Source: Rubrobacter taiwanensis (GTDB lineage Bacteria; Actinomycetota; Rubrobacteria; Rubrobacterales; Rubrobacteraceae). From it: a stretch of 64,000 bases of DNA. Under the pieces are notes generated by a model. It made no database searches, was not told the DNA's origin, and saw nothing but the letters and a program-made list of their open reading frames with translations. The DNA is taken from positions 174,676-238,675 of the forward strand of contig NZ_SKBU01000015.1 in the NCBI RefSeq assembly GCF_004337705.1, read 5' to 3'. Positions within the stretch are counted from its first letter, which is position 1. Each line of letters begins with the position of its first letter. The position numbers and the translations under genes were made by a program. Shown one piece after another: positions 11,670-15,475 of the stretch.

Positions 11670-12824
11670 TTGAGCGCAGATCTCAGATTCCACATAGCCG
11701 GCGAAGAAGAGATAAAGACCGCTCAGGTCGCGGACGTCTACTTCCACCGCACGATGCAGATCCTGAAGGCCCGCAACATGGACCGCACGCACGTCCACGC
11801 CGAGGTAACCCTCAAGTCCGCAGATCCGGACGAGTGGTTTGTGGTCGCCGGTCTGGACGAGGTGGCGCACCTGCTGGACGGCCTGGAGCTGGAGGCCCGG
11901 GCGGTCCCGGAGGGCACTATCTGCCGCCCGCACGAGCCCGTTCTCACGCTAAACGGCCCGTACGGGGAGTTTGCCGAGCACGAGACGGCGATCCTGGGCT
12001 TCCTCTGTCAGGCCTCCGGGGTGGCGACCGCGGCGGCCCGCTGCCGGCTAGCGGCCGGGGAGCGGCGCCTCATCTCCTTCGGAGCCCGCCGGATGCACCC
12101 GGCCATAAGCCTCATGATAGAGCGCGCCGCCTATCTCGGGGGCTGCGACGGGGTGGCGGTCGAGCTGGCAGCGAAGGAGCTCGGCATCCCGGCCACGGGC
12201 ACCACCCCGCACGCGCTGGCACTGATACTGGGCTCGACGGCGGAGATGGCCCGGGCCTTCGATGAGATCGTGGACGAGTCCGTACCCCGCACCATTCTCA
12301 TCGACACCTTCGACGATGAAAAGTTCGGGGCGGTTCTTGCGGCCGAGGCCATCCCGGAGAGCATCTTCGCCGTCCGGCTGGACACGCCCGGCAACCGCCG
12401 GGGCAACTTCGCGGATCTGATGCGCGAGGTGCGCTGGGAGCTGGACAGCCGGGGGTTCGAGCACGTCAAGCTCTTCGCTTCGGGGGGGATCGGGGTGGAG
12501 GAGATCTTGGAGCTGAACCCCGTCTGCGACGCCTACGGTATCGGCGGCCCCATCGCCGCCGCGCCGATGGTGGACTACTCGCTAGACATCGTGGAGGTCG
12601 AGGGCCGCCCCCGCGCCAAGCGCGGCAAGATGAGCGGCCGCAAGACGCTCGCAGAGCTGCCGGACGGCACGCGCCGGGTGGTGCCTGCCGGAGCCGGGCT
12701 CCCCGAAGGCGCACGCGACGCTCTCCGCCCGCTGGATGAGCTCTATGCCGGAGGCGCCGACGTCTCTGCGGCGCGCCGGCGGGTCCTGGACCAGCTCGCC
12801 ACGGGCCGTTACACGCTCGACTAG
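11670..12824 (+). CDS. pncB: Nicotinate phosphoribosyltransferase
   Basis: Converts nicotinate and PRPP to nicotinate mononucleotide in the Preiss-Handler route of NAD synthesis. The 384-residue protein resembles the compact archaeal/actinobacterial type: TAQVADVYFHRTMQILK at the start, SFGARRMHPAIS (phosphoribosyl site), GTTPHALAL, FDDEKFGA, VRLDTPGNRRG and FASGGIGVEEI. TTG 11670 is preferred because of GGAGAGG and the upstream -10. The C-terminal stop overlaps the end of the convergent TerC gene by 4 bases. Confidence 0.9.
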   Translation: MSADLRFHIAGEEEIKTAQVADVYFHRTMQILKARNMDRTHVHAEVTLKSADPDEWFVVAGLDEVAHLLDGLELEARAVPEGTICRPHEPVLTLNGPYGEFAEHETAILGFLCQASGVATAAARCRLAAGERRLISFGARRMHPAISLMIERAAYLGGCDGVAVELAAKELGIPATGTTPHALALILGSTAEMARAFDEIVDESVPRTILIDTFDDEKFGAVLAAEAIPESIFAVRLDTPGNRRGNFADLMREVRWELDSRGFEHVKLFASGGIGVEEILELNPVCDAYGIGGPIAAAPMVDYSLDIVEVEGRPRAKRGKMSGRKTLAELPDGTRRVVPAGAGLPEGARDALRPLDELYAGGADVSAARRRVLDQLATGRYTLD

Positions 12825-13738
12825 CGCCTCCGGGTCCTGTAGAGGGAGAAGAGGATCGAAGCGGCTATCACGGTGGTTATGAACGGCAGGGAGATCCAGA
12901 TCGGGAACTTCCCGACGATATCCGAGAGCATGAACTTCACGCCGACGAAGACCAGCACGATGGAGAGCCCGACCTTCAGGTAGATGAAGCGCTCCATCAT
13001 GCCGGCCAGCATGAAGTACAGCGCTCTTAAGCCCAGGATGGCGAACGCGTTGGAGGTCCAGACCACGAACGGATCCCGGGTTATGGCGAAGATCGCGGGT
13101 ATGGAGTCCACGGCGAAGACGAGATCCGTGCTCTCGACGGCCACGAGCACCGCGAACAGCGGCGTGGCGAGCAGCTTGCCGCGCTCGCGCACGAAGAAGC
13201 GCTGGCCACGGTACTCGCCGGTCATCGGCAGCAGCCGGCGCACCAGCCTCAGAACCGGGTTGCGCTCGGGATGCACCTCCCCGCTGCGGTGCCGGGCCAT
13301 CTTTATCCCGGTGTAGATCAGGAAGGCTCCGAAGACGTAGACGATCCAGTCGTAACGCTCCAGAAGCTCCGCGCCGATGAGGATGAAGATGCCCCGCATC
13401 ACCAGCGCCCCGACCACGCCCCAGAAGAGCACGCGATACTGGTAGGCCGGCGGAACGGCGAAGTAGGCGAAGATCAGGGCGAAGACGAAGACGTTGTCCA
13501 CCGAGAGCGCCTTCTCCAGCACGTAGCCCGTGAAGTACTCGCCGGCCGTGACCGGACCGGCCCACCACCACACGAAGCCGCCGAAGATCACCGCCAGCGC
13601 CACCCAGAACCCGCTGAGCAGCGTCGCCTCGCGGAAAGAAACCTTCTTCGCATCCCGGTGGAAGACGAAGAGATCCAGCGCCAGCATCAGCAGGACGAAG
13701 GCTCCGAACGCCACCCAGGCCCAGACCGGGAACGTCAC
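12821..13738 (-). CDS. TerC/Alx family membrane protein, probable Mn2+ exporter
   Basis: A 305-residue protein with about nine hydrophobic segments. It has the paired acidic family motifs EKALSVDNVFVFALIF (near 80) and VAVESTDLVFAVDSIPAI (near 205). TerC/Alx proteins (YkoY, Alx) export manganese or load it into exoenzymes. A Mn2+-sensing yybP-ykoY riboswitch upstream matches this role. The GTG start (13738) overlaps the stop of a 15-residue leader ORF as GTGA and has no clear ribosome site of its own, so its translation is probably coupled. Confidence 0.92.
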   Translation of the reverse strand: MTFPVWAWVAFGAFVLLMLALDLFVFHRDAKKVSFREATLLSGFWVALAVIFGGFVWWWAGPVTAGEYFTGYVLEKALSVDNVFVFALIFAYFAVPPAYQYRVLFWGVVGALVMRGIFILIGAELLERYDWIVYVFGAFLIYTGIKMARHRSGEVHPERNPVLRLVRRLLPMTGEYRGQRFFVRERGKLLATPLFAVLVAVESTDLVFAVDSIPAIFAITRDPFVVWTSNAFAILGLRALYFMLAGMMERFIYLKVGLSIVLVFVGVKFMLSDIVGKFPIWISLPFITTVIAASILFSLYRTRRR

Positions 13739-13782
13739 CGCTCCCTCACCCCCGGCCCAGCAGGTGCAACTTCAATCGACAT
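13735..13782 (-). CDS. Short leader ORF coupled to the TerC gene
   Basis: ATG at 13782 follows a strong GGAGAGGAG (13798-13790) and encodes 15 residues, MSIEVAPAGPGVRER. Its TGA overlaps the GTG of the TerC gene in GTGA. The best ribosome site in the region belongs to this small ORF, so it may feed ribosomes to the transporter gene. No homologue is recognised; the peptide itself may be unimportant. Confidence 0.55.
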   Translation of the reverse strand: MSIEVAPAGPGVRER

Positions 13783-13822
13783 AGCCCATCTCCTCTCCGG
13801 TGACGGGCCGCGGCGTCGCACG

Positions 13823-13867
13823 AAAAAGCGAGGCCACCGCGGCCGGTTTTGCCTGCGGTGGTCTCGC
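13823..13867 (-). terminator. Riboswitch-controlled intrinsic terminator
   Basis: On the reverse strand GCGAGACCACCGC (13867-13855) pairs with GCGGTGGCCTCGC (13840-13828) with one mismatch, followed directly by five T (13827-13823). The 5' arm contains the conserved 3' end of the Mn aptamer (GCGAGACC plus the P1 strand CACCG), so aptamer and terminator cannot form together. Confidence 0.85.
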
Positions 13868-13964
13868 CGCTGTAACTCCCGGTTACAGGTGCCGGCCGGG
13901 AGCCGGAGGCTCCGTACTGACGACCGGTCACCTCCGCCGTAGCGGAGGGCTACTCCCCAACACC
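13851..13964 (-). ncRNA. yybP-ykoY (Mn2+) riboswitch
   Basis: The reverse strand carries the conserved blocks of the Mn2+-sensing aptamer: GGGGAGTAGCC (13958-13948), then GTCGTCAGTACG in the middle, and GGCGAGACC (13868-13860). P1 can form between GGTG near 13964-13961 and CACC near 13859. In this class Mn2+ docks two loops and stabilises the aptamer. Here that would prevent the overlapping terminator and switch on the TerC/Alx gene, the usual target. Confidence 0.92.
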
Positions 13965-13968
13965 GGGA

Positions 13969-13997
13969 TTTATACCCCGCGAACGGCCCTCCGTCAA
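13969..13997 (-). promoter_or_regulatory. Promoter of the riboswitch-TerC transcript
   Basis: -35 TTGACG (13997-13992), 17-base spacer, -10 TATAAA (13974-13969) on the reverse strand. The predicted start falls at about 13962-13964, the first base pair of the riboswitch P1 stem. Confidence 0.8.
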
Positions 13998-14044: not shown

Positions 14045-15475
14045 GTGCCGTCCATACAGGAGATAGCGGGATATGTCGCGGCGGGGGCTCCGTTCCTGAT
14101 CGCCGCTCTGGCGCTGCTGGTGCTGCGGTGGCCGGCGACGCGAGCGGGAGGGGCGGCGCTGGCGGCGGCGTTGGGAGGCGCGCTTCTGTGTCCGGCGCTG
14201 ACGGCTGCGGGGCTGGGGGAGGCCGCGTGGTCCGGCCTGGGGACCGCGGCAAACGTGCTGTACGTGCTCTTCGGCGGGCTGCTGCTCTTCAACGTCCTCT
14301 CGCGGACCGGAGCGGTGGACCGGGTCTCGGAGTTTCTGGGACGGCTGGAGCCGGACCGGGGGGCGCTGGCGCTCGTGGTCGTGGTCGGGGCGGCCCCGTT
14401 CTTCGAATCGGTAACGGGCTTCGGGGTGGCGGTCGTGATCTCAGCCCCGGTACTGCTCGCCGCAGGGTTCTCCCGGGTGCGCACGGCGGCACTGGCGAGC
14501 TGGGGCCAGTGCGCCGTGCCGTGGGGAGCTCTGGGCGTGGGCACGGTGGTCGGGGCGGATCTGGCGGGGCTGCAGTTCGGGGAGCTCTCGGACGCCAGCG
14601 CCCTGCTGAACCTGCCGCTCTTTCCCGTATACGGACTGGCGGCGGTCATGATGGCCGGGGGCTTCTCCGGTCTCCGGCGAAACGGAGCTGAGGCGGCGGG
14701 GCTCGGGCTTGCGGCGGGCGCCGGAACGCTGCTGACGAGCCTGTACCTGGTCCCCGAGCTCGCCGGGGCGGCGGGAGGACTGGTGGCGGTGGCCGCCTTC
14801 CTCCTGCCGCGCCGGAGCCGGTTGCGGGAGCTGCCCCTCCCCCGGCGCTCGCTGGCTCCGTACGGGCTGCTGCTGGCGCTCCTGGTCTCCGCCAGCGGCG
14901 TTCCTCCGGTGGAACGAGCGCTGGAGGGGCTTGGTCCCGCCTTCTCGGGGCCTGCGATCTGGCTCTTCGTCTCCGCCGCTTTCGCGGCTCTCCTGCTCGG
15001 CCTCAAGCGCGCCGAAGCGACCTCCGCGCTCGGTGATACGCTCCGGCAGTGGCTGCCGGTCGCCGGAGCCGTGCTGGCGTTCGTGCTGGCCGGCCAGATC
15101 ATGGCCGCCTCGGGTGCGGCGGCGCTGCTGGCCGGTGGAGCGGCGGCGGCGCTGGGCGGCCTGTACCCGGCCTTCGGACCGGCCGTGGGCGCTCTCGGCG
15201 GGGCGCTCACGGGCTCCAACGCGGCCTCGAACGCACTCTTCATGCCCTTCCAGGCAGAGGCGGCCCGGGCGGGGGATGCCTCCCTTCTCACGCTCGCGGC
15301 GCTGCAGAACGTGGCGGGAAGCCACGCGAGCATGCTGGCGCCCCAGAGGGTGGTGCTCGCAGCTGCGGCCGTGGGTATGGCCGGACGGGAAGCCGAGATA
15401 GTGCGGTCGATCGCGCCTCCGGTCCTCGTCTCGCTGGCGGTCCTGACCGTGGTCGGCGCAGCGTCTCTCGTCTAG
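14045..15475 (+). CDS. lctP: L-lactate permease (LctP/LldP family)
   Basis: A 476-residue protein with about 13 hydrophobic segments, predicted to import lactate or glycolate with protons. FESVTGFGVAVVISAPVLLA (near 121) and GALTGSNAASNALFMPFQ (near 385) are signature stretches of the family. It is somewhat shorter than E. coli LldP (551). The GTG start lacks a ribosome site; TAATGT 13 bases upstream could be the -10. It is divergent from the riboswitch. Confidence 0.87.
   Translation: MPSIQEIAGYVAAGAPFLIAALALLVLRWPATRAGGAALAAALGGALLCPALTAAGLGEAAWSGLGTAANVLYVLFGGLLLFNVLSRTGAVDRVSEFLGRLEPDRGALALVVVVGAAPFFESVTGFGVAVVISAPVLLAAGFSRVRTAALASWGQCAVPWGALGVGTVVGADLAGLQFGELSDASALLNLPLFPVYGLAAVMMAGGFSGLRRNGAEAAGLGLAAGAGTLLTSLYLVPELAGAAGGLVAVAAFLLPRRSRLRELPLPRRSLAPYGLLLALLVSASGVPPVERALEGLGPAFSGPAIWLFVSAAFAALLLGLKRAEATSALGDTLRQWLPVAGAVLAFVLAGQIMAASGAAALLAGGAAAALGGLYPAFGPAVGALGGALTGSNAASNALFMPFQAEAARAGDASLLTLAALQNVAGSHASMLAPQRVVLAAAAVGMAGREAEIVRSIAPPVLVSLAVLTVVGAASLV

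Follow-up and report, generated by a model that had tools for sequence, protein, structure and literature searches.

A divergent Mn2+ riboswitch subgroup upstream of terC in Rubrobacter taiwanensis and its candidate two-stage expression platform

The terC gene of Rubrobacter taiwanensis is preceded by an RNA element that, judged by its sequence, is almost certainly a member of the yybP-ykoY Mn2+ riboswitch class despite missing the curated score, and we consider it fairly probable that this element acts through a two-stage expression platform, in which antitermination is followed by a relay to translation. Within a riboswitch class that is already known, it represents a subgroup that is new and divergent. 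The class and the first stage are ordinary, the second stage is what is new here, and the interest lies in this second stage and in the range of targets found in relatives. A literature search for an Mn2+ riboswitch in Rubrobacter returned no description, although its coverage was limited and such an absence is no proof. The window, that is, the whole stretch of 64,000 nucleotides that was analyzed, belongs to contig 6 of a genome of 3.04 Mb, and the TerC relatives of its gene come from Rubrobacter and uncultured Rubrobacteraceae. A lactate-permease gene (PF02652), divergent from the minus-strand terC, runs from position 14045; the features of the leader are collected in Table 1.

Table 1. Features of the terC leader, given in window coordinates and ordered along the minus strand
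Feature	Position	Strand	Remark
-35 box TTGACG	13992..13997	-	most relatives have a TTGAC-type box equally far from the aptamer
-10 box TATAAA	13969..13974	-	start position inferred from the consensus only
Mn2+ (yybP-ykoY) aptamer, P1.1 to P1.1	13859..13959	-	window-free model R2; below RF00080 cut-off; covariation
L1 GGGGAGUAG	13950..13958	-	GGGGAGUA invariant in aligned members
P2 hairpin UCCGC-UACG-GCGGA	13933..13946	-	covarying pairs
P3.1 CCGGUCG/CGGCCGG and P3.2 GGAGCC/GGCUCC, flanking L3	13892..13927	-	covarying pairs
L3 UCAGUAC, 7 nt	13914..13920	-	covariance-model alignment (cmscan); CA invariant in aligned members
P4 hairpin CUGUAAC-CGGGA-GUUACAG	13870..13888	-	sequence varies among relatives
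Terminator 5' arm (T5) GCGAGACCACCGC	13855..13867	-	includes the P1.1 3' strand and, one base excepted, that of P1.2
Terminator 3' arm (T3) GGCCGCGGUGGCCUCGC	13828..13844	-	first 8 bases also complementary to segment A
U-tract UUUUU	13823..13827	-	weak or absent in some members
Segment A CCGCGGCC	13806..13813	-	partner of T3 when the aptamer is closed
Hairpin B:B' GGCCCGUC/GAUGGGCU	13783..13809	-	Shine-Dalgarno lies inside; GGCC common to A and B
Shine-Dalgarno GGAGAGGAG	13790..13798	-	sequence
15-codon leader ORF MSIEVAPAGPGVRER	13735..13782	-	stop overlaps terC start (GTGA); arrangement kept in most terC-linked members
terC, TerC/Alx family membrane protein, 305 aa, GTG start	12821..13738	-	PF03741

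Class membership and anatomy of the aptamer

The initial annotation had assigned the element to the yybP-ykoY class and had set an Rfam match above threshold as the test of this assignment. That test failed, as RF00080 scores the window at 19.5 bits (E 0.002) against a curated cut-off of 45 bits, which is an annotation threshold and not a structural or functional definition, and at the gathering thresholds no Rfam family was matched anywhere in the window. Further Rfam candidates for this region, Scr3202 and BSnc120 among them, all scored far under cut-off and were rejected. None of the 39 genomes of the family passes the RF00080 cut-off, whereas modeling within the lineage retrieves a true RF00080 member and also, when the window is left out of the training, the window itself; hence, the failure reflects the reach of the Rfam model, and annotation at this cut-off misses the riboswitch throughout the family. 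The lineage covariance model, R1, identifies 22 members in 20 of the 39 genomes, and R2, a model built without the window sequence, scores the window site at 75.7 bits with an E of 5e-15 and finds nothing else in the 3 Mb genome. R1 also reaches other actinobacterial families and recovers, at 49.2 bits (E 6.7e-9), the locus L079 of another family, which with 49.1 bits lies over the RF00080 cut-off and is a bona fide member of RF00080. A class-wide search yielded hits in the family of the window alone.

The architecture of the aptamer is supported by comparison among relatives. In alignment A1, which comprises 13 TerC relatives bearing the same blocks upstream, RNAalifold places P1.1, P1.2, P3.1 and P3.2 unaided. 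Across 19 members, window excluded, 96% of the 22 aptamer pairs are kept, with slid partners reaching at most 54%, and compensatory changes on both sides are found in 11 of the 22; these counts use a hand-made structure, RNAalifold having misplaced P1 on the 19-member alignment. P1.2, P2 and P3 of the four-way junction covary, and the P4 hairpin varies in sequence and is supported in part. The L1 loop and the 3' block GAGACC (13865-13860, minus strand) form P1.1 and the L1 internal loop, in which GG:CC is present in all members, and the third P1.1 pair is U-A in seven and C-G in six of the 13 sequences of A1. An alternative P1, UCCCGGU/ACCGGGA, is the minimum-free-energy favorite and was rejected, as the alignment backs UGG/CCA with GAGACC instead and its 5' strand would lie at or upstream of the likely transcript start. 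Compared with chance, folding of the leader gives a z of -3.07. The published L3 loops of L. lactis (UCAAUUC) and X. oryzae (ACAUACU) are 7 nt long, like that of the window (PMC6754395), and we infer that A 13918 in L3 is the counterpart of the Mn-binding A41/A48 and that A 13954 in L1 is the counterpart of X. oryzae A10. The conserved L1, L3 and GAGACC blocks are all located on the minus strand where they had first been read. Class membership, and with it the initial assignment, is accepted because of the R2 match in the window, the R1 match to L079, the aptamer covariation, and the length of L3 together with its Mn2+-contacting adenosine.

Promoter, terminator and the likely first stage

A consensus promoter had been proposed on the minus strand and is borne out, as the two boxes carry 10 of 12 consensus bases and are separated by a 17-base spacer. 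Most relatives possess TTGAC-type boxes at the matching distance 5' of GGGGAG. From the promoter consensus, the transcript should begin a few bases before P1.1. A simple promoter scan was empty at this site, TATAAA remaining unlisted because its strict rule demands T as the last base of the -10 box. Also, the gene directly 3' of the riboswitch is the TerC/Alx gene named at the outset, a Mn-homeostasis gene (PF03741, E 2.4e-56). No MntP exporter was found in the genome, and the R1 and R2 models detect no such leader at its second TerC-family gene (L002; G000 contig 32, 101281-101790).

The terminator is formed by pairing of T5 with GCGGUGGCCUCGC (13840-13828) at 12 of 13 positions. T5 includes the 3' strand of P1.1 (13861-13859) and, apart from its first base, the 3' strand of P1.2 (13868-13866), so that aptamer closure and terminator are mutually exclusive, in agreement with the earlier claim that the arm closing the aptamer also builds the terminator and that only one fold can exist at a time. 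Both folds are indeed predicted. Before T3 is made, the closed and open aptamer lie within 0.7 kcal/mol of each other, while once the U-tract has been reached, the terminator fold is favored by 11.3 kcal/mol. These are model energies that ignore tertiary contacts, and their pattern is what a kinetic ON switch working during transcription, like that of L. lactis, would be expected to show. Mn2+ would dock L1 on L3 and keep P1.1 closed, leaving T5 occupied; with T5 unavailable, no intrinsic terminator would form and read-through would follow, whereas without Mn2+ T5:T3 would form and transcription would stop. Homology to L. lactis yoaB makes such Mn2+-driven antitermination highly likely. Use of the class with this layout had been put forward as less described in the lineage; a strand shared by P1.1 and the terminator is standard for transcriptional members of the class and no special feature. 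The architecture had been called complete; the elements named are all present, but that reading ends at the U-tract and overlooks the probable second stage, the leader ORF and the fact that some relatives have lost the U-tract.

A probable relay beyond the terminator

In the alignment of the region past GAGACC, a second conserved block is located 3' of the U-tract, with GRCCGYGG in T3 set against CCRCGGYC. In the window, the part GGCCGCGG of the terminator 3' arm is complementary to segment A, 23 bases downstream. The two blocks were first spotted by eye and tested afterwards. T3:A pairing is present in 95.8% of cells, with slid controls at 50% or less, and changes on both sides affect four of the eight pairs. 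Nine double-change cells were observed against 1.9 expected from shuffles, a count that overstates the independent events because the members are related (by eye, about four or five for T3:A), and a permutation test with close relatives collapsed gave p 0.0004. Segment A lies beyond the stop point, so that the pairing of T3 with A must have a post-termination role. In eight of 21 members, no stretch of eight bases holds as many as five T, and the U-tract is weak or absent. An anti-aptamer hairpin is present without a proper U-tract in L007, L010, L024, L012, L045, L049 and L053, which suggests that intrinsic termination has been lost there. T3:A is complementary at all eight positions in five of these (L007, L010, L024, L045 and L049), and its retention where the U-tract is weak or absent suggests that such lineages rely on translation.

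The conserved ribosome site lies within hairpin B:B' downstream of T3. In 11 of 14 terC-linked members, this site opens a leader ORF of 15-26 codons whose stop overlaps the terC start, and in L004, L005 and L011 terC itself begins there. The leader peptide sequences are unconserved, so that the arrangement rather than the peptide seems to matter. When the aptamer is enforced in the window, the best fold utilizes T3:A and B:B' is cut to four closing pairs, and the predicted cost of opening the ribosome site falls from 12.7 to 7.9 kcal/mol. Of 21 members, 15 show this cost reduced by more than 1 kcal/mol upon closure of the aptamer (median -2.1 kcal/mol; p 5e-4), and no improvement is predicted for L010, L049, L053 and L054. 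Shuffling of the A/B segment abolishes the additional closure of the OFF state (mean 11.7 to 9.7 kcal/mol, p 6e-4) and leaves the ON state as it was. Isolated platform folds are mixed, that of the window showing T3:A only in part alongside an intact B:B', and whole-leader folds with a closed aptamer are clearer. Hence, we hypothesize that on the read-through RNA the T3 strand freed by the closed aptamer would pair with segment A, and that, A sharing GGCC with B:B', this hairpin would be shortened and translation of the leader ORF eased; if T5:T3 has formed, B:B' would stay whole and the ribosome site closed. Together with the covariation of T3:A, these folding models indicate that control is probably dual, with translation reached via T3:A and the ribosome site.

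Two other readings of the region beyond the terminator have to be weighed. The leader might be a plain transcriptional ON switch such as that of L. lactis yoaB, the downstream block being a hairpin that displays the Shine-Dalgarno constitutively and the complementarity of T3 and A having no regulatory role. The anatomy of the first stage is complete in itself, several of the predicted folds contain B:B' whichever state is adopted, and, although B:B' is 92% paired, a search for covariation found no compensatory change in it. However, segment A is situated downstream of the termination point and cannot take part in the termination decision, yet T3:A covaries, and it persists where the U-tract is gone; we therefore regard a plain switch as unlikely, at perhaps the strength of a serious minority view. 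Less likely still is a latch, in which T3:A stops the freed 3' arm from invading P1.1 and makes the ON state irreversible, any effect on the ribosome site being secondary. T3:A does compete directly with T5:T3, and free folds of the whole window leader favor the terminator by 9-10 kcal/mol, so that a finished transcript would otherwise revert. However, the predicted closure of the ribosome site depends on the A/B segment in the OFF state specifically, and a pure latch would have no need of this.

Targets in relatives and known systems

The main target among the members is terC, and a shorter-type TerC-family gene follows the switch at L049. At L039 and L040 the switch precedes sodium/calcium exchanger-type genes (PF01699 for L039, by similarity for L040), possibly encoding an Mn2+ exporter, and at L044 and L053 it precedes genes for two-domain universal stress proteins (Pfam Usp). 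L045, whose contig ends early, is provisionally grouped with the latter two. A second copy of the subgroup in G004 (L054; contig 3, 67312-67434) is located directly before a gene for a sigma-70/ECF-type sigma factor, an unusual target for an Mn2+ riboswitch. With these relatives, Usp genes and a sigma factor are added to the targets of the class. Upstream of terC in L009, L013, L017 and L029, a related but different subgroup of the same family is found (GGAGUAUCC...GGAGAGAC / GGAGUAUCC...GGAGAGACUUCC), in which, read by eye, an anti-P1 hairpin lies over the AAGGAG-like Shine-Dalgarno box of a leader ORF; by its sequence, this is apparently a translational version.

The RF00080 score far under threshold, together with Usp and sigma-factor targets, could point to a diverged relative that responds to a different signal or has lost the ability to bind metal, but the conservation of L1, of L3 with its Mn-contacting adenosine and of the P1.1 pairing, and terC as the main target, make this very improbable. 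Rubrobacter species are highly radiation resistant, and this resistance was found to correlate with the accumulation of trehalose along with manganese (PMC3505630). Extending the two-stage reading, we tentatively propose, at somewhat less than even confidence, that one aptamer governs both transcription and translation through a chain of strands (P1.1/T5 to T3, to A, to the ribosome-site hairpin), that the two levels are separable in evolution, some lineages dropping the U-tract yet keeping the relay, and that stress and sigma-factor genes are also governed in this way in a family known for radiation resistance. The subgroup, with and without U-tract and with and without leader ORF, offers a natural series for how one aptamer drives termination and translation.

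Among known systems, the trp leader of B. subtilis, controlled by TRAP, likewise combines an intrinsic terminator with a Shine-Dalgarno-blocking hairpin in the read-through RNA, but its sensor is a protein and the ligand turns it OFF. In L. lactis yoaB, the 3' segment of P1.1 is part of the terminator and Mn2+ turns the switch ON (PMC11087558). The Rubrobacter leader shares with it the L1 and L3 blocks, a weak P1.1 switch helix and a terminator on the P1.1 3' strand (PMC11087558, PMC6754395), whereas the available portions of these sources mention no second-stage pairing past the terminator, and the Rubrobacter aptamers, unlike yoaB, are GC-rich and below the RF00080 cut-off. The E. coli mntP and alx leaders belong to the same aptamer class, alx being a TerC-family gene, and control there also reaches translation. 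However, mntP is described as utilizing translational control and Rho-dependent termination (PMC11647493), in contrast to the intrinsic terminator and predicted relay of the window. The actinobacterial terC of C. glutamicum (cg2157) is a predicted RF00080 member with an observed 5' leader (PMC3890552) and, at 49 bits, lies over the present RF00080 cut-off, whereas the Rubrobacter subgroup lies under it.
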